Shown one piece after another: positions 742 to 27,900 of a DNA stretch of 64,000 bases (its first letter is position 1; each line of letters opens with the position of its first letter). The stretch spans positions 11,486,291 to 11,550,290 of the forward strand of contig OZ020515.1 in assembly GCA_963971425.1 (NCBI GenBank), written 5' to 3'. This DNA is from Bryoerythrophyllum caledonicum. Its lineage: Eukaryota > Streptophyta > Bryopsida > Pottiales > Pottiaceae. The notes below the pieces were generated by a model. That model made no database searches. It was not told the origin of the DNA and saw only the letters and a program-made list of their open reading frames with translations. The translations under genes and the position numbers were made by a program.

Positions 742-750
742 TAGCTATTA

Positions 751-1102
751 TCACGGGACGTGGCGTCGAGGGCCTCTCCGTATCGTAGATTTTAGCGTAG
801 ATTAGTTTGTTACTAATCTACGTGTGTAGGGACGAACGGCGGCGCACCGTTTTCATCCGTGGATGATTTTCATCCACTTAGGGTTGTTTGCGTGTGCGTA
901 TAGCGCCGCACACGTCCTTGACTTGACGTCTTTGTCAAGTCAAGCTTTGTGAGTGTGTTTAGAGAGTGATTAGTGAGTCCTTGCTTGTTAGTGATGGTTT
1001 GTCATTAGTAAAGACTCTACATTCTCTAGTTCCACTCGCACTCGTTGATTCTTCCTTCGTGGAGTGCGAGACGCTTGACTATTTGTGATTCATACATCTT
1101 TC
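751..1102 (+). repeat. 5' LTR, lacking its first ~105 bp
   Basis: This is the shared B part of the LTR, from the TCACGGGACGTGG block to ACATCTTTCA. Compared with the 3' LTR it lacks the first ~105 bp (A part). It contains several strong hairpins, including 10-bp arms at 796-805/813-822 and 11-bp arms at 917-927/934-944. Confidence 0.85.
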
Positions 1103-2237
1103 ACTTGACAAAGACCCTCCCACGTTTCTTGCTATAGTTCTCAAATTTGACATTGAGTGATTTGAAAAAAATTGTGGGTACTTTGAATTTACGAATAGAG
1201 CGCGTGGAGACGGAGCCAACGCCACCGACCGCGCCCAAATCGGACGATTTTTGGAGAAGTTGTGGAGATTGGAAGTTGTGGAGCAAGAAGTTCTGGAGTT
1301 TCTGGAGTTTCAGCAGTTTCATCCAATTTGCGATTTCTCATCCATTGTCGACGTTTCATCCGCTGCGCACGACTTCATCCATCCGGAGCAGTTTTCATCC
1401 GGGTATGCATATGCACAAGGGTCGCAATTCCGTTAGGGACCCTAAACCGTGCCGAAGTTCCCAATTCCGTTAGTTTGAGTGCTGAAATTTCAGGGAGTCC
1501 CTGGAATGAACACTTAAAATTTCAACTTTTGGAGTTTTACATATTTTTTGATTCTGATTGCGGATTTGAGTTATGTTATGTGATCTCTTAAAAAAAAAAA
1601 AAAGATAGTGCTAAACTTTGGGAGTAGATTTCAAAGGCATTGTCACTCGGATGTAAGTGACATTTATGCTTATAGTTAGGGTTTCCGCCATTTGACCTAA
1701 TTTTAGCATTAGTTTGGCGTTTGTTGTGATTATCTACCAATGTATGTGATTTCATTGGATGGATAGTGTTTTTAAACACCACGGTCAATCTCCACTACTC
1801 CCTTAGTTTTAGACGTTAGGGGGGAACACTTTCAGTGTTTCTCTTTGATTTGTAGGTTTTGCGACTTTGAGGCATCCACTGCAGGCGTGTGCTAGTGGCG
1901 CTGTCTCTTTCATTTTCCTGCTTTTATGTTGTTGGGGGAGAGGATCCGGTTTTGATTTCTGGATTCTTGTGCAGTACCTCCCCCGTGTTGCGGGCTTGTT
2001 GCCGGTGTTTTCCGGTGGCCCCATTTCTTGTTGTTCCAGTTTGTGATAGGGTACCGTAGGGGTGAAGTCGGATTTATGGCCGGCAAGACCTTTCTATGTG
2101 GGGGGATGTGGTTGGACCTGTGGTAGCCGGAGGTGATGACCGGTGATCCACACAGCTTGGTGATTTTGCAGGTGCAGGTTGCCCGTTCGTACCCTTACCC
2201 TTTAGATAGTACCCGTAGATAGATCCCGAGGAGGTTT
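1103..2237 (+). other. Untranslated leader of the gypsy element
   Basis: There is no convincing coding frame here. The leader has a short poly-A run near 1590-1603 and a perfect splice-donor-like AAGGTGAGT at about 2243, just past its end. Its role is unknown; the length (~1.1 kb) is large for a gypsy leader. No tRNA-complementary primer-binding site was recognised after the LTR. Confidence 0.5.
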
Positions 2238-2660
2238 TTGTTTAAGGTGAGTACCCGGAGTCGGTATTACCGCTCTCCCTCACCAAACCACTCGGAGAGT
2301 GCTTCCACCATAGACTTTGGGCCAGGGTCGGATACCGACGAGGCTTTTGAGCCTGTTTCGGCGTTGGATACCGACCGTAGGCTTCGGATCTGGAGTGTGG
2401 GCACGTTTGACGACATGGAGGACGATCACCGTCATGTCGTGCGAGACAGGTTCTCGGGACGGGCTGGGGGCATCTCCTTGCCCGATTGGCGTCTCCGATT
2501 CCAAACTTGGATGAAGGAGAAGCGCCAGCGGACGCCGTCGTTCAACGATTGGTACGCGTTCGAGCTTTTGCCCCAGCATTTGGAGCTGGAGGCACTTCAG
2601 ACATATGGGAGGTGGACCACGCAGCACGAGGCAGAGTTGCGCCCGGTTGAGGAGTATTGA
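2238..2660 (+). pseudogene. Gag N-terminal segment
   Basis: This frame encodes an acidic, Trp-containing region followed by LPDWRLRFQTWMKEKRQR, consistent with the start of a gag matrix/capsid region. There is no ATG at the start; the first in-frame ATG is near 2415. It ends at TGA (2658-2660), but coding-like sequence (RQRVELVTTLKESAVAQ) continues in the same frame to about 2715. There the frame switches to that of the main gag ORF. The TGA could be a CGA-to-TGA transition. I read this as gag damaged by a nonsense change and a frameshift, although programmed frameshifting is not excluded. Confidence 0.55.
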
Positions 2661-4177
2661 CGCCAGCGTGTGGAGTTGGTCACTACACTCAAGGAGAGTG
2701 CGGTTGCCCAACTCTCGATTCCACCGAGGAGCCCATGGAAGAGGAGAGTTTCCTCGGTGAAGACTCCAAGGGCAAGGGTGTTGCCATTGTGGGCGAACGA
2801 GCTCGCATGAGGGCCATGTCTCGTTTGGCCGTAGCGACACGTGCAGCATTGGTGGCGGTTGGCAACCCGCCAGCCTTCGATCCTTTGGCGCAGTTCATGG
2901 CGCATCTGGAGGTGGAGTACGGGGGGTTTCGGCGCGATCAGATGCACTGCATCCAGGACTTCCGCCGTGAGAAGGAAGACACGCCACGCACCATGTACAC
3001 ACGGTTGGCACGGTTGGCGGCGGAGGCTGGTGATGTCTTTACGGAGCGCCAACTTGTGAAGATTTTTATCTCTAAGCTCGACAAGCGGATGGTAGAGTTG
3101 ATCAGTCCGAATTTGCTCTTCCGGTACCACAGCAACGCGACCTTGGCTCAGGCGTTCGCCGAGGTGGAAGCGCTTGACCGGGCGTTGGGTGTGAGCGAGG
3201 CCACAGACTTCGTCACTTCGCTCATGGATGCTCCGAAGCCCAAGAAGCTTGCTACGGTGACTGGTAGCTTGGCAGAAGCACAACCTGAAAAGGTTGTGCA
3301 TTGTTGGGCTTGTGGAGAGGCCGGTCACACCAAGGGGGACCCCAATTGTCCGAAGAAGAAGGAGGCAGTGGCGAGGAAGTCCAAGCCCAAGACCGAGGCG
3401 GCCAAGCTTACGGAGAAGACTGGGAGCAAGGGGAAGAAGCCTGTGACATGCTCTCACTGTGGCAAGCCTGGCCACAGTGATGAAAACTGCTTTTCTCTTC
3501 ACCCAGAGAAGCGCCCAGGATCTTCGGCTGTTGGATCGGATGCCGTGAAGTCACTTCAATCCGAATTGGCGGAGTTGAAGAAGCAGATGAGCGCGATGGC
3601 TTCTTTGGGGCAAGTGGTAGACACACGGCCTGTGGTGACGGGTCAGGGCTCATCTTCAGCCTTAGATCGCTACTTGTATGGCGCTTCGGGGGAGGTAGTG
3701 GCAGCGGTTGCCACTCGTGCTCAGACCATTTCACAGGCGGTGGCACCCTCTTCCACTCTGCCGGGTAGTAGCGGTCGTTCACGCCATGCGGGTTTGCCGG
3801 ACCACATTGGTCAGTCCCGACTACCTCTGTCGTTCAGCATCGCGGATGCGACTACTTCTACTGCCGCTCCCACTTTGATTTCGGTCCCACCGGTTTCTTC
3901 CAGTCCTGGAGATGCTGTACATACCTTGGCGTATAAGGTGTTGCAATTGCCGGTGTTTGCTGGTGTGGACTTTCTCACACCGGATTTTCAACCATCCGGT
4001 ATATTCCATTTGGCGGGTAGTATGTTGGAAGACAAGGTGCCCATTCCGTCGTTGGAGGTGTCACAGGTAGTGACCGCTCCACCCATTGAGGAGGATTTGG
4101 TGGCAATGCGGGCCAAGTTGGCGGCGGAGGCTATTTCCGTGTTTGAGGCCAATGCCACTTCCGCACCTATGGAGTAG
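2657..4177 (+). CDS. gag: Gag polyprotein (capsid and nucleocapsid)
   Basis: The main gag frame reads well from about 2720. A capsid-like helical stretch (PAFDPLAQFMAHLE, then REKEDTPRTMYTRLARL and FISKLDKRM) corresponds to the retrotransposon gag domain. Two nucleocapsid zinc knuckles follow. The first, CWACGEAGH...C at about 3301, has a longer last spacer (CX2CX4HX6C). The second, CSHCGKPGHSDENC at about 3451, is canonical CX2CX4HX4C. They lie in a Lys-rich stretch suited to RNA packaging. A Ser/Thr/Pro-rich tail follows. The frame ends at TAG 4175-4177 and stays open after it into protease, so readthrough would give Gag-Pro. The N-terminal part of this frame before 2720 is probably not coding. 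Confidence 0.85.
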   Translation: MTPACGVGHYTQGECGCPTLDSTEEPMEEESFLGEDSKGKGVAIVGERARMRAMSRLAVATRAALVAVGNPPAFDPLAQFMAHLEVEYGGFRRDQMHCIQDFRREKEDTPRTMYTRLARLAAEAGDVFTERQLVKIFISKLDKRMVELISPNLLFRYHSNATLAQAFAEVEALDRALGVSEATDFVTSLMDAPKPKKLATVTGSLAEAQPEKVVHCWACGEAGHTKGDPNCPKKKEAVARKSKPKTEAAKLTEKTGSKGKKPVTCSHCGKPGHSDENCFSLHPEKRPGSSAVGSDAVKSLQSELAELKKQMSAMASLGQVVDTRPVVTGQGSSSALDRYLYGASGEVVAAVATRAQTISQAVAPSSTLPGSSGRSRHAGLPDHIGQSRLPLSFSIADATTSTAAPTLISVPPVSSSPGDAVHTLAYKVLQLPVFAGVDFLTPDFQPSGIFHLAGSMLEDKVPIPSLEVSQVVTAPPIEEDLVAMRAKLAAEAISVFEANATSAPME

Positions 4178-4903
4178 TCGTCCAGGGATCGGGCCTTGAT
4201 ATCTGGAGTGGCTTATTTGTCTGACGTTGCAGCCCGGTCGGCACGGGAGCGACGCAGTGTGCGTCCAGGGGTGGTACGTTTGGTGAATGACGATCGAGTC
4301 ATGGTGGTAGGCTGTACGGATGGCAACTCCACTCGAGCTACCCCCCTACGTGTTATGTTGGACTCCGGGGCTCAGCCAGTGATGATTGGCAAGCAGCTAG
4401 CCCAGGATTTGGGTCTAGGTGCTTTGGACCTCGAGCCTTGTCCATTCACGATTGTTACATCGGTTGGGGGCACGGAGAAGGCCATGGGCTACACCCGACA
4501 TCCGTTGCAGTTGATGTTTGGCGTGGGATCTGGTCCATTATTCTCCCATGTCTCCCTTCAGTGCGCTGTTACTGGCGCCACCAACTACGATATTTTGGTG
4601 GGCCAACAGGCACTATATCCACTTGGATTTGGGGTGGATAACTGGACGGAGGAGGCCTGGATTAGGCCAGGGTGGTCTGCCGGTGATGGCAGGAAGGAGC
4701 TCATCCCCGTAGTCTTCGCAGCTAGCGCAGTGACTTCGACGACAGATGCTATGTTTGGGTGTAGTGCTCTGGCATCAGACTTGCCGTGTGCTTCTTCACT
4801 TTTGGAGGAGACATATGCATTTATGTCTGTGGTGGAGGATTCACGCGAGCACCCACCATTGGCGATCCCTGCCCGTCATTGCAAAGATCCGCTTCCGCTG
4901 TAG
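4178..4903 (+). CDS. Retroviral-type aspartic protease
   Basis: This is in the same frame as gag after the TAG at 4175. The retropepsin active-site motif LDSGAQPVMIGKQLA lies at about 4360, with a flap/second-half region and the hydrophobic YDILVGQQAL motif at about 4590, the gypsy protease equivalent of ILGxD. It would process the element's polyprotein. No ATG precedes the catalytic Asp closely enough to give a sensible independent start apart from one about 20 codons upstream. Production as a Gag-Pro readthrough product is therefore plausible. The frame ends at TAG 4901-4903. A 35-codon linker (4904-5008) and a third TAG (5009-5011) then separate it from the methyltransferase. Confidence 0.85.
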   Translation, partial: SSRDRALISGVAYLSDVAARSARERRSVRPGVVRLVNDDRVMVVGCTDGNSTRATPLRVMLDSGAQPVMIGKQLAQDLGLGALDLEPCPFTIVTSVGGTEKAMGYTRHPLQLMFGVGSGPLFSHVSLQCAVTGATNYDILVGQQALYPLGFGVDNWTEEAWIRPGWSAGDGRKELIPVVFAASAVTSTTDAMFGCSALASDLPCASSLLEETYAFMSVVEDSREHPPLAIPARHCKDPLPL

Positions 4904-5011
4904 GGGACACCGTTGGAGCTCACTTGTCGTAGTGGAGAGATCGTGGATGCTCTTGATGCTCCACTGCCTTCAGTGGACTCTTCCACTCCGTTGTTGGCTC
5001 GTACTATTTAG

Positions 5012-6283
5012 TGGCGACCACCGGATGAGGGTATTACCCTTGTGGAGTTATTTGCCGGTATCGGTACGGGGCTCGCGGCTGTATTGGAGGCCGGGCTCAA
5101 GGTACGACGGTATATCCACGTGGATAGTGGCTTTGCAGCCAACCGTGCCGCTCACCATCACATTCAGCGTCTTCTGGCGTTGTATCCAGAGCAATTACCA
5201 TCTTCTGCGATTCGAGGGTGTTTTGGCAAGTTGCCACGTGATGTGACGTTGATCAGTGAGGATGATCTTCGCCGGTTAGGTCACGTGGACTTGGTGATTG
5301 TCGGATGGCCTTGCCAAGGCCATTCACGGGCGGGAAGTGGACGTGGCTTGGATGATCCACGGTCGGGTCTCTTTGCGGATTTGCTCAGGCTCGTCCAGTG
5401 GTGGATTACCCACCAATCGACACCACCGGGGTACATTTTTGAGAATGTACCCCCATTGGGGGATACACGGACGAAAGTGCGTGAGGATGGGGCGTACATC
5501 CATCACCTTCTTGGTCCCCCTACGTTTGTTGATGCCGCAGCGTTGGGATCTTACGCCCATCGGCCACGTTGGATTTGGACCAACATGGCATCATCCACGA
5601 CGTTCACTTCTGCACTTGCTCAAGTGCAACGGCCCGTGCGCCGTGAGCTCGATGACATTTTAGACGACCACCGTGTTTCCACGGAGGTTACGAAGGATGA
5701 TGAGCCACCATTGGCGGTGGTCAACCGCGTTGGTTTCACTCGGGGGGCATTTCCCACTCTGATGTGCTATCGAGGATCTTTTGCCTTCAGGTCACGCGGT
5801 CCGGGCATGGTTTGGGATTCTTCTTCCCAAACTTTCGAGGAGCCTTCTGCCGATGAGAGGGAGCGGGCGATGGGCTTTTTGACAGGCACCACCGCCGCAC
5901 CGGATATCTCTGAGGGCCAACGCCGTTATTTGTTGGGTCAAGCCATTGACCTCAACACCCTTGTTTGGATATGTGGCCTCTGTTTCGCCGCTCAACGCCG
6001 TTCGAGTGACCATCCACGCGTGCTGGGGGCAGACTCTGATGGTCAGGGGGCAGCGGTGCCACATCTCACAGAGATCGAGGAAGCGGAGTTGCTTTTTCGT
6101 TTGAAGAGGCATGCAGCTGAAGAGCTTCGTGCTCAGCATGTCTTTGCAGCCTTGGCAGAGGACTTTGGCTGTGAGGATGCTCGGGATATCTTTTCCCAGT
6201 TTTATCATCACGACACGGGATTTTCTATAGATCCTGTGAGTGAGGGGTGTGGGGGCATTAATGCCCTCTCTGCTACCAAGTAG
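5012..6283 (+). CDS. DNMT3-like C5-cytosine DNA methyltransferase in the retrotransposon
   Basis: The reaction would be transfer of a methyl group from S-adenosylmethionine to C5 of cytosine. Motif I is LVELFAGIGTGLAAVLEAGL near 5030 (SAM binding). Motif IV is GWPCQGHSRAG near 5305, with the catalytic Cys in PCQ. Motif VI is FENVPP near 5437. Motif VIII is AHRPRWIWTN near 5555, close to the AHRxRYFWGN form of DNMT3/DRM enzymes. A motif IX/X region ends in RRYLLGQAIDLNTLVWI near 5925. All key motifs are present and there is no internal stop across ~415 codons. The small gap between motifs VIII and IX fits DNMT3 rather than DNMT1/CMT. There is no ATG near its start, so it probably depends on readthrough of upstream TAG codons. 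It ends at a TAG in a leaky context. Confidence 0.9.
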   Translation, partial: WRPPDEGITLVELFAGIGTGLAAVLEAGLKVRRYIHVDSGFAANRAAHHHIQRLLALYPEQLPSSAIRGCFGKLPRDVTLISEDDLRRLGHVDLVIVGWPCQGHSRAGSGRGLDDPRSGLFADLLRLVQWWITHQSTPPGYIFENVPPLGDTRTKVREDGAYIHHLLGPPTFVDAAALGSYAHRPRWIWTNMASSTTFTSALAQVQRPVRRELDDILDDHRVSTEVTKDDEPPLAVVNRVGFTRGAFPTLMCYRGSFAFRSRGPGMVWDSSSQTFEEPSADERERAMGFLTGTTAAPDISEGQRRYLLGQAIDLNTLVWICGLCFAAQRRSSDHPRVLGADSDGQGAAVPHLTEIEEAELLFRLKRHAAEELRAQHVFAALAEDFGCEDARDIFSQFYHHDTGFSIDPVSEGCGGINALSATK

Positions 6284-6289
6284 CAATCA
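6281..6289 (+). promoter_or_regulatory. Possible stop-readthrough signal TAG-CAATCA
   Basis: The stop between methyltransferase and RT is TAG followed by CAATCA. This fits the CARYYA context known from tobacco mosaic virus type leaky stops. The RT frame continues directly in phase with no ATG for about 100 codons. Readthrough is inferred from context only. Confidence 0.5.
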
Positions 6290-9016
6290 CCGGCCGTGCC
6301 GGTACGCGGTGAGTCTTCTACGGTGGAGAAGGAGACCACGGAGTTTGATGATTGGCCTTTGGATTTGGGGCCACATCTTACTGGTGCCGAGGCACGAAGG
6401 GTACGAGCGTTTATACGTTCGTATCGTAGTTGTTTTGCCTTTAGTCTCCATGATTTGGAGGGCTATAGAGGCAAACCAATTCACATTCAGTTGGAGGATG
6501 ACCACCCGATCTTCCGACGACCGTACAAGCTCAGTCTCTCCGAGAAAGTTGGGGTTCAAACTCGTTGTCAGGAGTTGTTGGACGCCAGCTTGATTGAGCT
6601 CTCTAACGGCGAGTACGCTTGTGCCACGGTGATGCCATCGAAGAAGGACATCTTTGGCAACTGGACGGAGAAGCGGATGTGTGGGGATTATAGGCCGGTC
6701 AATCGTAAGACCAAGTCGGATCGGTATCCCATGCCCACGCCAGAGGAGTTGTTTGATGCGGTGGGACATGCCAGAGTATTTAGTACTCTGGATTTGCGGT
6801 CCGGTTACCACCAGTTACCATTGATGGTGGAAGACCGGGTGAAGACCGCGTTCTGGGGAGTTGATCTGGATGGGAGAGATCAGCTCTACCATTGGAAGTT
6901 TCTCCCATTTGGCCTCAAGAACGCACCCGCTGAGTTTCAGAGGGTGATGGACCGGGTGTTGACCGGTTTACCGTTTGCCCGATGCTACATTGATGATGTT
7001 ATCATTTTTAGTAGCAGCCCACAGGAGCATGTGAGGCATCTTCAGGCGGTGTTTGAGAGGTTACGGCAGTGGGGATTGCGCTTGCACCATGGCAAATGCA
7101 AATTCTTCCATGACCGGTTGCCATACTTGGGACATATGATTGTTCCAGGAGGTCTTGGCGTGCAGCAGGCGAAGGTTGACGCGCTGCAGAAGATCCCAGC
7201 CCCAATCGACGTGTCGCGGCTCAGAGCTTTTCTTTGCCTGGCGAATTACTATCGCCGGTTTGTCAAGAACTTCAGCTTGATTGCCAAGCCGTTGACTATT
7301 CTCACGGGGAAGGATCAGCCATGGACTTGGGGACGGGAGCAGCAGCAGGCGTTTGCTACTTTGAAGCTGAAGCTCGGTTCAGCGCCTGTACTGCGGCGTC
7401 CAGATGCTACACGGCCTTTCCACTTGCACACAGATTGGAGTGCAGTAGGATTGGGAGCCGTGTTGACTCAAAAGGATGAAGAAAGACGGGAGTACGTTAT
7501 GGCAGCGGATGAGGAACCAGACAAGGCCCAAGTTGTTAGCGACGTGTGGGAAGACGTTCTAGTCTTGTACAAGCTGCAACATGGCACACTTCCGCCCGCT
7601 CTTTCGGCCATGGAGCGCGATCGAGTTGGACACCGGATAGCGAGGTTCCGTTGGGAGAACGGCCTTCTATTTCGGTTGTGGCCGGATGGAACTAGGCGCA
7701 TAGTTCCCAGACCGGATCAGAGGGCTTTGTTGGTACGGCAAGTACACGAAGACCTTGGTCATTTTGGTGTGCGGCGGACTCTTTCGATGTTGCGCAGTCA
7801 ATATTGGTGGACCGGCATGTATGAGCAGGTGGCCATGTACGTTTCACGGTGTGAAGTCTGTGATCGGGTCAGATCCAGCTTCAACACATTGTCACCACAG
7901 TTGCAGCCTTTGCCCATCATGGGTTTGGGCTACCGTTGGTCTCTGGATTTTGCTGGGCCACTTGTTGTCACCCCACGTGGAGCCAAGTACGTGTTGGTGA
8001 TGGTGGAGCACTTCAGCAAGTGGATTGAGCTTGTGGCATTACCACAGAATTCCTCGGAGTTGGCGGCCATGGCATTCCTTGACCGGGTGCTCGCTCGTTT
8101 TGGAGCCCCAACTGAGGTGTTGACTGACCAAGGGCGTGAGTTCCTTGGTGCTTTCGAGGCTTTGTGCACCAAGGCTTTGATTGACCACCGTACGACTTCT
8201 AGAGATCATCCGGAAGCGGACGGTTTGGCGGAGCGTGTGGTTCAGACCGTCAAGCGTGGACTACGGAAGTATGGATTACTTCAGGGTGGCCACCGTGATT
8301 GGGATCTGATGATACCATGGATCGCCATGGGATACCGGTTTAGCCGGCAGGCCTCTTTGGCCGCTTTCAGTCCGTATCAGTTGTTGTACGGACGGGAGCC
8401 GATTCTACCCAATTCTGTACGGGAGAAGTTGGCCCCAGTTGTGGACTTGGATGATCCAGAGGTCTGGATCCAGTGTCTGCGTGACCGAGCGGAGTTCTTC
8501 AAGCGGGCCATGCCAATGGCCATGGAGAATTTATCCATCGCTCAGCACCGCGACACATTACGGTACGCTCGCATTCGCAGCGGCGCTTATCGACCTCAGT
8601 TGCGGCGTTTCTCCACTGGAGATTACGTTTATTTGCAACGTGAGGCGCCTACGACGTTAAACGTCAAGGCCGGGCGCACCATTCTTCGTGTGAAGGATGT
8701 GTTGCCCAGTGGCATCTTGTTGCTGGAAGGCAAAGATGGCCGGGAGTGTCGGGAGCACTCCAAGAACTGCGCGCCCTGCCATTTACCCATTGATGGCTCC
8801 GTGCATCCTGAGTTGGCCGTTGTGCCACAGGGTCTTCCGTGTTTTGTATGTGGTGAGAAGAAGGGTACGGCTACTATGTTGCTTTGTGACCATTGTCAGC
8901 GTGGTTGGCATATGGCTTGCTTGACGCCGCCTCACTCTACTCTACCGTCCGGGGATTGGACTTGCCCTTGTTGTCGGAGGTCTTCGAGTCACGTTTCACC
9001 CGATGAAACGGCTTGA
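6284..9016 (+). CDS. pol: Pol: reverse transcriptase, truncated RNase H, integrase, C-terminal PHD finger
   Basis: The RT domain covers about 6480-7150 with FSTLDLRSGYHQ (motif A), FLPFGLKNAPAEFQRVMD and the catalytic YIDDVIIFS near 6990. RNase H starts at HLHTDWSAVGLGAVLTQKD (about 7425) but is cut short: the frame passes straight to YVMAADEEPDK and the ERDRVGHRIARF spacer, missing the later catalytic residues. Integrase has an HEDLGH...CEVC zinc site (about 7745-7862) and the DDE core: D in LDFAGPL, D in LTDQGREF, E in HPEADGLAER. The C-terminus (about 8840-8974) is a C4HC3 PHD finger (CFVC, LLCDHCQRGWH, WTCPCC). It takes the place of the chromodomain found in many gypsy integrases and may read histone tails to direct integration. 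The reading frame is complete. Confidence 0.93.
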   Translation, partial: QSPAVPVRGESSTVEKETTEFDDWPLDLGPHLTGAEARRVRAFIRSYRSCFAFSLHDLEGYRGKPIHIQLEDDHPIFRRPYKLSLSEKVGVQTRCQELLDASLIELSNGEYACATVMPSKKDIFGNWTEKRMCGDYRPVNRKTKSDRYPMPTPEELFDAVGHARVFSTLDLRSGYHQLPLMVEDRVKTAFWGVDLDGRDQLYHWKFLPFGLKNAPAEFQRVMDRVLTGLPFARCYIDDVIIFSSSPQEHVRHLQAVFERLRQWGLRLHHGKCKFFHDRLPYLGHMIVPGGLGVQQAKVDALQKIPAPIDVSRLRAFLCLANYYRRFVKNFSLIAKPLTILTGKDQPWTWGREQQQAFATLKLKLGSAPVLRRPDATRPFHLHTDWSAVGLGAVLTQKDEERREYVMAADEEPDKAQVVSDVWEDVLVLYKLQHGTLPPALSAMERDRVGHRIARFRWENGLLFRLWPDGTRRIVPRPDQRALLVRQVHEDLGHFGVRRTLSMLRSQYWWTGMYEQVAMYVSRCEVCDRVRSSFNTLSPQLQPLPIMGLGYRWSLDFAGPLVVTPRGAKYVLVMVEHFSKWIELVALPQNSSELAAMAFLDRVLARFGAPTEVLTDQGREFLGAFEALCTKALIDHRTTSRDHPEADGLAERVVQTVKRGLRKYGLLQGGHRDWDLMIPWIAMGYRFSRQASLAAFSPYQLLYGREPILPNSVREKLAPVVDLDDPEVWIQCLRDRAEFFKRAMPMAMENLSIAQHRDTLRYARIRSGAYRPQLRRFSTGDYVYLQREAPTTLNVKAGRTILRVKDVLPSGILLLEGKDGRECREHSKNCAPCHLPIDGSVHPELAVVPQGLPCFVCGEKKGTATMLLCDHCQRGWHMACLTPPHSTLPSGDWTCPCCRRSSSHVSPDETA

Positions 9017-9331
9017 ATTCCTCATAGACTTGTCATTGTGTGGTGTGTTGCCATCCAGTTGGAGCTCCTGGTTTCGGTTCAGGGATAGGCAACGTGGAGA
9101 TTGACCAAGGGATTGGCAATAAAATTGCCTAAGGCGATTAAAGATGGGGCTCACATTGCACCCGGCCTACCATCTCTTTGTTACTTCTTCATATGCTTAT
9201 TGATTTGATGACGGCGACATCTTTGGCTGGATGCGTACAGTTGTTGCAGCGACATCACCGTGGCGTTTAGTCTTATTAGTGTTGTTTGGTCCTAGCTGGA
9301 TAGAGGGTCTCTTTATCCGCTAGGGGGGGCA
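9017..9331 (+). other. 3' untranslated region and polypurine tract
   Basis: This short non-coding stretch after pol ends in a G-rich tract (TAGGGGGGGCAC at 9321-9332) directly before the 3' LTR, where plus-strand priming would occur. Confidence 0.7.
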
Positions 9332-9795
9332 CTTGAGGGTGTATTACGTATACTTGTTTTAGTGTATGTTTTTCGTTTATTTGATGTTGGTTAGGACTCT
9401 CGATCTGTTGTGGTTATTGATCTTTCTTTACACGACAGCTGTCACGGGACGTGGCGTCGAGGGTCTCTCCGTATCGTAGATTTTAGCGTAGATTAGTTTG
9501 TTACTAATCTACATGTGTTTAGGGACAAACGGCGGCGCACCGTTTTCATCCGTGGATGATTTTCATCCACTTAGGGTTGTTTGCGTGTGCGTATAGCGCC
9601 GCACACGTCCTTGACTTGACGTCTTTGTCAAGTCAAGCTTTGTGAGTGTGTTTAGAGAGTGATTAGTGAGTCCTTGCTTGTTAGTGATGGTTTGTCATTA
9701 GTAAAGACTCTACATTCTCTAGTTCCACTCGCACTCGTTGATTCTTCCTTCGTGGAGTGCGAGACGCTTGACTACTTGTGATTCATACATCTTTC
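9332..9795 (+). repeat. 3' LTR (A + B parts)
   Basis: It begins right after the polypurine tract with TTGAGGGTGTATTACG. The first ~105 bp (A) is absent from the 5' copy; 9442-9795 (B) matches 751-1102 closely. It carries the same hairpins as the 5' copy. Confidence 0.85.
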
Positions 9796-9901
9796 CTTGA
9801 GGGTGTATTACGTATACTTGTTTTAGTGTATGTTTTTCGTTTATTTGATGTTGGTTAGGACTCTCGATCTGTTGTGGTTATCGATCTTTCTTTACACGAC
9901 A
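9796..9901 (+). repeat. Second copy of the LTR's first 105 bp
   Basis: The A part (9332-9437) is repeated here with about one difference, joined to the end of the 3' LTR and ending at CACGACA. The order of the insertion is therefore B-internal-A-B-A. Confidence 0.8.
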
Positions 9902-10093
9902 CTATGTATAAAGTAGTTAATGAAAAAACACTATTTTATATTGTTGTAAAACTTGACTGCTTGTCAACAAATGGAACCATTTTTTATTCACTAGCATGAA
10001 GATGTAGTTTCCATAGATACATGAAATATTCATGGATGTATATACTCTTAGACCCTTAGATACAAATGAACTTGGATTTGTCAAGGTGGATTT

Positions 10094-27156: not shown

Positions 27157-27360
27157 TAACATCAAACAACACTACAACCAAAAACAATATAGTATATATA
27201 TATACTAAAATACATACTAAAAGCCAAAAAATATATAAAAATATAAATAAAAGAGAAGAAAACAAAATATAAATATAAATAAAAGAGAAGAAAAAATATA
27301 TATAAATATAAATAAAAGAGAAGAAAAAAATATCATAGTATATTTATATACTATAATATA
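27157..27360 (+). repeat. AT-rich short repeats before the CAA block
   Basis: AAAATATAAATATAAATAAAAG-type units are repeated three times, with TATATA runs. Two TAA codons at 27361-27366 close the frame of the following Gln block. Confidence 0.7.

Positions 27361-27900
<540 letters not shown>

Follow-up and report, generated by a model that had tools for sequence, protein, structure and literature searches.

DNA methyltransferases (DNMTs) normally silence transposons, and a silencing enzyme carried by transposons themselves is therefore a puzzle. Klebsormidium nitens possesses such an element, KnitGypsy-Dnmt3, in which a DNMT3 is found in a Gypsy retrotransposon, and the DNMTs of SymbioDIRS elements are reported to methylate CG in yeast (both de Mendoza 2018, PMC5890265). 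Retrotransposon DNMT3s are also mentioned in a 2025 paper that cites de Mendoza 2018. Here we describe an element from Bryoerythrophyllum caledonicum, located in a 64,000-nucleotide stretch of contig OZ020515.1 (assembly GCA_963971425.1, positions 11,486,291 to 11,550,290; "the window"). A single Ty3/Gypsy element occupies window positions 749-9901, with its coding features on the forward strand, and holds both a DNMT3-like methyltransferase and a C4HC3 PHD finger. The window copy is broken; in the family to which it belongs, the DNMT3-like enzyme is encoded in the Gag frame and the PHD on the integrase.

The assignment to Ty3/Gypsy follows from the Pfam scan of the window open reading frames (ORFs), which gave the domain order protease, reverse transcriptase (RT), RNase H, integrase, the latter of the rve type. 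A prediction made earlier from the sequence alone (the original prediction) had placed a C5-methyltransferase between protease and RT, and a methyltransferase is indeed encoded there (5012-6280, within the ORF 5012-6283): the Pfam domain DNA_methylase was matched with an E-value of 7.3e-12, the match spanning residues 10-154 only, i.e., the N-terminal part of the enzyme. In a PDB sequence search, DNMT3B/3C/3A came out on top (E ~2e-7). A profile built from 24 relative sequences ranked DNMT3A (1.6e-21) above DRM (~1e-11 to 1e-9); Dnmt2 and bacterial enzymes scored mostly at ~1e-10 to 1e-7 (Dnmt2 and HhaI at ~1e-9 to 1e-7), and DNMT1 at ~1e-4 or weaker. In the profile alignment, motifs I to X appear in DNMT3 order, the last C-terminal motif being weak when taken alone. 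The fold might have been retained for binding nucleic acids or modifying RNA, with no methylation of DNA, as could be argued from the inactivity of the KnitGypsy-Dnmt3 enzyme in yeast (inconclusive according to its authors; PMC5890265). However, the catalytic PCQ and EN residues are invariant or at least 90% conserved across the 24 sequences, and the nearest relative is DNMT3 rather than Dnmt2; we regard this explanation as improbable.

The predicted C4HC3 PHD finger after the integrase was confirmed as well (PF00628, E = 9.6e-8, residues 853-897 of ORF2, positions 8840-8974), and the isolated 78-residue end piece gave an E-value of 1.1e-9. Its best PDB matches include PHF12, CHD4, KDM5, UHRF1 and ATXR5, mostly chromatin proteins; several of these PHDs read H3K4me0. 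Judging from its sequence, the window PHD may be a reader of the same type. No chromodomain was found after the integrase in the Pfam scan of the window element; the PHD occupies this place instead.

The pairing of the two domains is a trait of the family. At least 99 DNMT copies (found with the DNMT protein as query) and at least 150 PHD copies were scored in the genome. Of the 99 scored DNMT copies, 81 are followed by a PHD match of the same strand at a distance of 2-9 kb, 61 of them with a DNMT-PHD spacing of 4,164-4,181 nt. In 20 examined 3' pieces, picked from the lists of two families, the C4HC3 pattern with all eight zinc ligands was present in 18 (10/10 in family 1, 8/10 in family 2). 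Family 2 is a second, divergent family of the same genome which likewise ends with the PHD, and its DNMTs score higher against Pfam than those of family 1. Furthermore, a contig from another source, filed as a cyanobacterium (L091), encodes a DNMT at 91% identity. Its ORF1 comprises 1,162 amino acids (the contig begins inside it), and its ORF2 (1,047 amino acids) is uninterrupted and PHD-bearing. The isolate name of L091, AVDCRST, presumably refers to soil crust; the contig is a retrotransposon contig in a cyanobacterial genome bin, and by eye its ends overlap, as for a circle or a repeat-driven assembly. The original prediction would have fallen if no other copy had carried the PHD or DNMT in frame; other copies carry both domains, and so does L091. 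A chance capture or an assembly artefact confined to the window copy, which might be suspected as this copy is broken, is practically refuted by the many copies, the second family and the occurrence in other genomes.

Both domains are under purifying selection. Ratios of nonsynonymous to synonymous substitution rates (dN/dS), computed against L091, were 0.10-0.15 for the DNMT (10 copies, selected from 30 loci) and 0.085-0.135 for the PHD (7 copies, selected from 10), and because these values are around 0.1 we conclude that both domains are kept by selection. For RT, 7 of the same 10 selected copies gave 0.04-0.08 and the other three, probably with broken frames, 0.32-0.42; the C-terminal part of the integrase gave 0.016-0.027 in 7/7. 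PHDs are versatile domains, and instead of reading histones the PHD could provide the integrase with a protein contact or assist its folding. The retention of all eight zinc ligands in 18 of 20 pieces, the low dN/dS and the similarity to mostly chromatin proteins speak against this possibility, which we consider less likely than not.

The stop codon between the DNMT and RT matches a known leaky type. The tobamovirus-type readthrough motif (type I, as in tobacco mosaic virus) reads UAG CAR YYA (PMC3542737). At the DNMT-RT junction, TAG followed by CAATCA (TAGCAATCA) is present in 29 of 30 family-1 loci including the window (UAG CAA UCA, 6281-6289), the remaining locus having TAA (TAACAATCA). 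Family 2 has TAG CAACCA (TAGCAACCA) in 5/7 loci, the junction string being unmatched in the other two, and L091 shows the same stop context. Thus, in two families, UAG CAR YYA separates two in-frame ORFs; by plain base odds, the chance of CARYYA after a stop is 1/512. The arrangement suggests that the DNMT would be made together with Gag and protease, and RT, integrase and PHD as a readthrough product. With the conserved leaky stop between them, DNMT and PHD would be on different products; writer and reader stand on opposite sides of it and would therefore be made neither as one unit nor in equal amounts. The original prediction is supported in part, and the writer-plus-reader strategy that it suggested is conceivable with this separation of the two domains.

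A single ORF spans gag, protease and DNMT in uninterrupted copies: 12 of the 99 scored copies have an open frame of 1,353 amino acids, and 9 of these are stop-free inside the match. The window copy has in-frame TAGs at 4175, 4901 and 5009, none of which is present in any of the 29 other copies examined. Position 5012, the first one given in the original prediction, is thus simply the nucleotide that follows the private TAG at 5009; the common junction is the TAG at 6281. As all four in-frame stops are TAG, an alternative code with TAG as a sense codon was considered and rejected, three of them being private and one shared. In the window copy, the gag part (2651-4174) has two CCHC-like knuckles (zf-CCHC and zf-CCHC_6, weak, below the Pfam cut-off), and its frame is interrupted just upstream of 2651. 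The aspartic protease region follows at 4178-4900 (Asp_protease_2, E = 6.4e-5, narrowly missing the cut-off). ORF 6284-9016 contains RVT_1, RNase H, H2C2 and rve (6284-8823) and then the PHD; relative to L091, its RNase H has an in-frame loss of 137 residues after 7504. That the element encodes its own methyltransferase is therefore true of the family and not of the window copy as it stands, with its private stops and deletion.

The ends of the element do not have the layout of plain long terminal repeats (LTRs); the order repeat A-coding-B-A-B replaces LTR-coding-LTR. The 5' copy of repeat A (749-1102) forms the element start, its TG end having decayed; over 360 nt it shares 98% identity with the 3' copy (9440-9795, delimited by repeat and edge comparison). 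The first copy of repeat B (9332-9437) is 99% identical to the second (9796-9901), which ends the element with CA. A probable polypurine tract (9321-9331), a G run directly before repeat B, was seen in 10/10 3' pieces. All ten family-1 3' pieces have two B stretches flanking A, one of the second copies being partial, and no B match was found in ten 5' pieces, three of which are uninformative because they start inside A. The outer ends read TGTC...GACA, the left one being decayed in the window copy, and are flanked by a 4-bp target-site duplication (745-748 and 9902-9905 in the window) in 6/6 family-1 copies with both edges readable, the window included, and in 1/1 family-2 copy. Tyrosine-recombinase (DIRS-type) elements are characterized by a tyrosine recombinase and the lack of target-site duplications; here, an rve integrase and the 4-bp duplications were found instead. 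Inside the 3' region, the junction comparison shows that 3' end and 5' end meet at a two-base joint (9438-9439) inside the palindrome GACAGCTGTC. This inner B/A joint was found in 9/10 family-1 3' pieces (the search string was unmatched in L086) and in 2/2 family-2 pieces. The order A-coding-B-A-B would result if a circle resembling a two-LTR circle were opened at one of its B/A joints.

Directly after the 5' repeat A lies a candidate primer-binding site (1103-1115), which pairs over 13/13 nt with a complementary site inside A (928-940), the predicted RNA 5' end under self-priming. The letters of the primer site are identical in 8 of 9 other copies (the string was unmatched in L073), and in three of these eight the leader behind it diverges, the primer site being retained. 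One family-2 copy has a different 13-nt stretch that is a perfect complement to its own repeat A; at two positions the primer sites of family 1 and family 2 have different letters, and their partners change accordingly, i.e., they covary. The predicted fold of 928-1130 beats 200/200 shuffles (z = -6.2), as does the family-2 equivalent (z = -4.1). These features make the family a candidate for Tf1-like self-priming in a plant Gypsy element. The self-complementary primer layout was noted at window positions 749-1130 and in L092, L093 and L098. The leader (1116-1700 in the window) is strongly different in L069, L081 and L083, whose DNMTs are 96-98% identical to that of the window, a pattern that an exchange of 5' leaders could produce.

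Taken together, these observations can be explained as follows. Most translation would end in Gag-protease-DNMT, so that the methyltransferase would enter the particle in Gag-like amounts, and leaky readthrough would give the rarer RT-integrase-PHD product. The RNA 5' end would fold onto the primer site and prime reverse transcription, after which the DNMT would methylate the new complementary DNA (cDNA). The PHD would hold the integrase to nucleosomes whose H3 tail is unmodified (H3K4me0), i.e., to transcriptionally silent chromatin, the embedded B/A junction would supply the ends cut by the integrase, and the new copy would land already methylated. We regard this as the best explanation as a whole and give it a probability of about 0.5. 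It is also conceivable that the DNMT has host DNA or other DNA as its substrate, or that it restrains the element that carries it, so that pre-silenced insertions would harm the host less and the element would be tolerated, self-methylation in the particle not being the point. A slower retrotransposition benefiting the host is one of the options listed in de Mendoza 2018 (PMC5890265), selection on the DNMT is compatible with any role, and its constraint is weaker than that of RT (0.10-0.15 vs 0.04-0.08). However, the position in the Gag frame favors packaging over a free nuclear enzyme, and this alternative appears rather unlikely to us.

Several observations weigh against methylation of the element's own cDNA followed by targeted integration. 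The CpG value is 0.84 in the element vs 0.70 for window positions 10001-64000; CpG is thus not depleted, and depletion was discarded as a sign of self-methylation. AIRE and BHC80 PHDs have acidic residues before the first cysteine, and the window PHD is without acidic residues just ahead of this cysteine. No scored PHD lies near 18 of the 99 scored DNMT copies, and the constraint on DNMT and PHD is looser than that on RT and integrase. For a related protein with DNMT, RT and integrase, P0166, no PHD is listed, and the KnitGypsy-Dnmt3 enzyme was inactive in yeast, a result that its authors regard as inconclusive. The insertion sites do not help: of nine flanks, two lie inside other Gypsy elements, and of four searched genome-wide, three consist of repeat sequence from nearly their first position, which says nothing about targeting without a control for the repeat share of the genome; the flanks were therefore rejected as evidence on targeting. 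The repeats at the insertion sites of L078 and L080 were mostly on the 65-Mb contig C1 among the matches listed; C1 may be a special chromosome.

Relatives of the element are present in other genomes. With the integrase C-terminus plus PHD as query, 126 proteins were retrieved, the best 120 of which were analyzed. PF00628 is present in 120/120 of them, which was rejected as proof of ubiquity, the query stretch itself having held the PHD. The DNMT profile was matched by 38 of the 120 (three over fewer than 65 positions), e.g., in Marchantia polymorpha (P0049), Sphagnum magellanicum (P0140), Volvox reticuliferus (P0065), Tetrabaena socialis (P0070) and Cymbomonas tetramitiformis (P0153, P0154, P0160), which carry both PHD and DNMT. 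According to match positions in the eight relatives with visible RT, the DNMT follows RT-RNase H and precedes the integrase in P0078, P0079, P0082, P0122, P0133, P0137 and P0154, and precedes RT in P0108 only; a Pfam scan of P0108, P0133 and P0137 showed the DNMT position in P0108 and P0133. In the DNMT tree, the pre-integrase group is separate (100/98; bootstrap not settled and no host DNMT3 root). Of the nine rows labelled as belonging to it, three (P0065, P0066, P0070) were given the label without visible RT; P0108 forms a long branch. In the integrase tree, P0108 joins the bryophyte-type group (97/90), and no single branch separates the pre-integrase group from the rest. The DNMT and integrase trees concur in keeping pre-RT and pre-integrase placement apart; the DNMT may have been captured once or repeatedly. 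None of the proteins retrieved bore the name of a host DNMT3. Viral contigs were searched and yielded no relative. We tentatively propose, as a possibility with the odds rather against it, a Gypsy lineage of green plants and green algae with an ancestral DNMT3-like writer and an integrase-borne PHD reader. In its land-plant branch, the DNMT would have been fused to Gag before a virus-type leaky stop, the RNA would be self-priming, and the integrase would work from an end-to-end junction built into the element rather than from LTR ends; new copies would arrive methylated and in unmarked (H3K4me0) chromatin, as self-silencing parasites.

Some further observations concern the assembly and the rest of the window. 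The genome comprises 437 Mb. Two contigs (C894, C821; L087-L090) with complete psaA and psaB are present in one assembly, and psaB of both plastids has the same best PDB chains (7ksq, 6l35, 8htu), which we take to be moss photosystem I. The charophyte host assumed in the original prediction is thus probably wrong, the plastid genes pointing to a bryophyte. Between the two plastids, psaB has 18 differences, 5 of them with serine in one plastid and leucine or phenylalanine in the other, as at land-plant C-to-U editing sites, and psaA has 20, two of them of this kind and one in the opposite direction. The assembly holds two different plastid genomes, one with apparent RNA-editing sites, which may stem from a mixed sample (two plants) or from contamination. 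A bacterial-looking cytosine methyltransferase with, by eye, bacterial-looking neighbors lies on a chromosome-size contig (L001, C14:16016358-16017317) and would represent contamination or transfer. Contigs C5 and C13 had no DNMT or PHD match among the matches listed; these two may be small or derive from a different source. In the window itself, long ORFs at ~25000-50000 resemble, by eye, LINE-type endonuclease and RT, and a long CAA/CAG-type microsatellite is located near 27350-27900.

With the DNMT in the Gag frame and the chromatin reader apart on the integrase, the puzzle of the transposon-borne silencing enzyme becomes a series of testable steps (cDNA methylation in the particle, landing sites), for which Marchantia, with its relative P0049, is a tractable model. 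The presence of split repeats beside a DDE-type integrase, together with the covarying self-primer site, furthermore bears on the replication of such elements. A DNMT in a Gypsy element has been known since 2018; the pairing with a PHD, though present in public proteins, was not found described for a DNMT-bearing retrotransposon in the literature searched (mostly titles and abstracts, with subscription papers largely outside), and this pairing together with the expression and priming layout looks new. KnitGypsy-Dnmt3, compared by description only, shares the DNMT3 in a Gypsy polyprotein, the DIRS-like repeat order (Fig. 4 legend) and purifying selection, whereas its DNMT is reported in the Pol ORF rather than in a gag-protease frame before a leaky stop, "PHD" has no occurrence in the main text, and the accessible parts of the paper mention neither a leaky stop nor self-priming (PMC5890265). 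Ginger1-9_HM has a PHD among the C-terminal domains of a Gypsy-integrase-like transposase; however, it is a Hydra DNA transposon with Ulp1 beside the PHD, and no DNMT is mentioned in the passages seen of its description (PMC2836005). Chromoviruses also have a chromatin-reading domain behind the integrase, which is a chromodomain there and a PHD in the window family. SymbioDIRS-Dnmt3 and PAT/DIRS elements share the split repeats A-coding-B-A-B, and SymbioDIRS-Dnmt3 also the DNMT3; they use a tyrosine recombinase, in contrast to the DDE-type integrase and 4-bp duplications of the window family. Finally, in the self-priming of Tf1/sushi elements the primer site is complementary to the RNA 5' end, and the primer site of the window family likewise complements an upstream site, the would-be RNA 5' end, but here it is combined with split repeats, a DNMT and a PHD.

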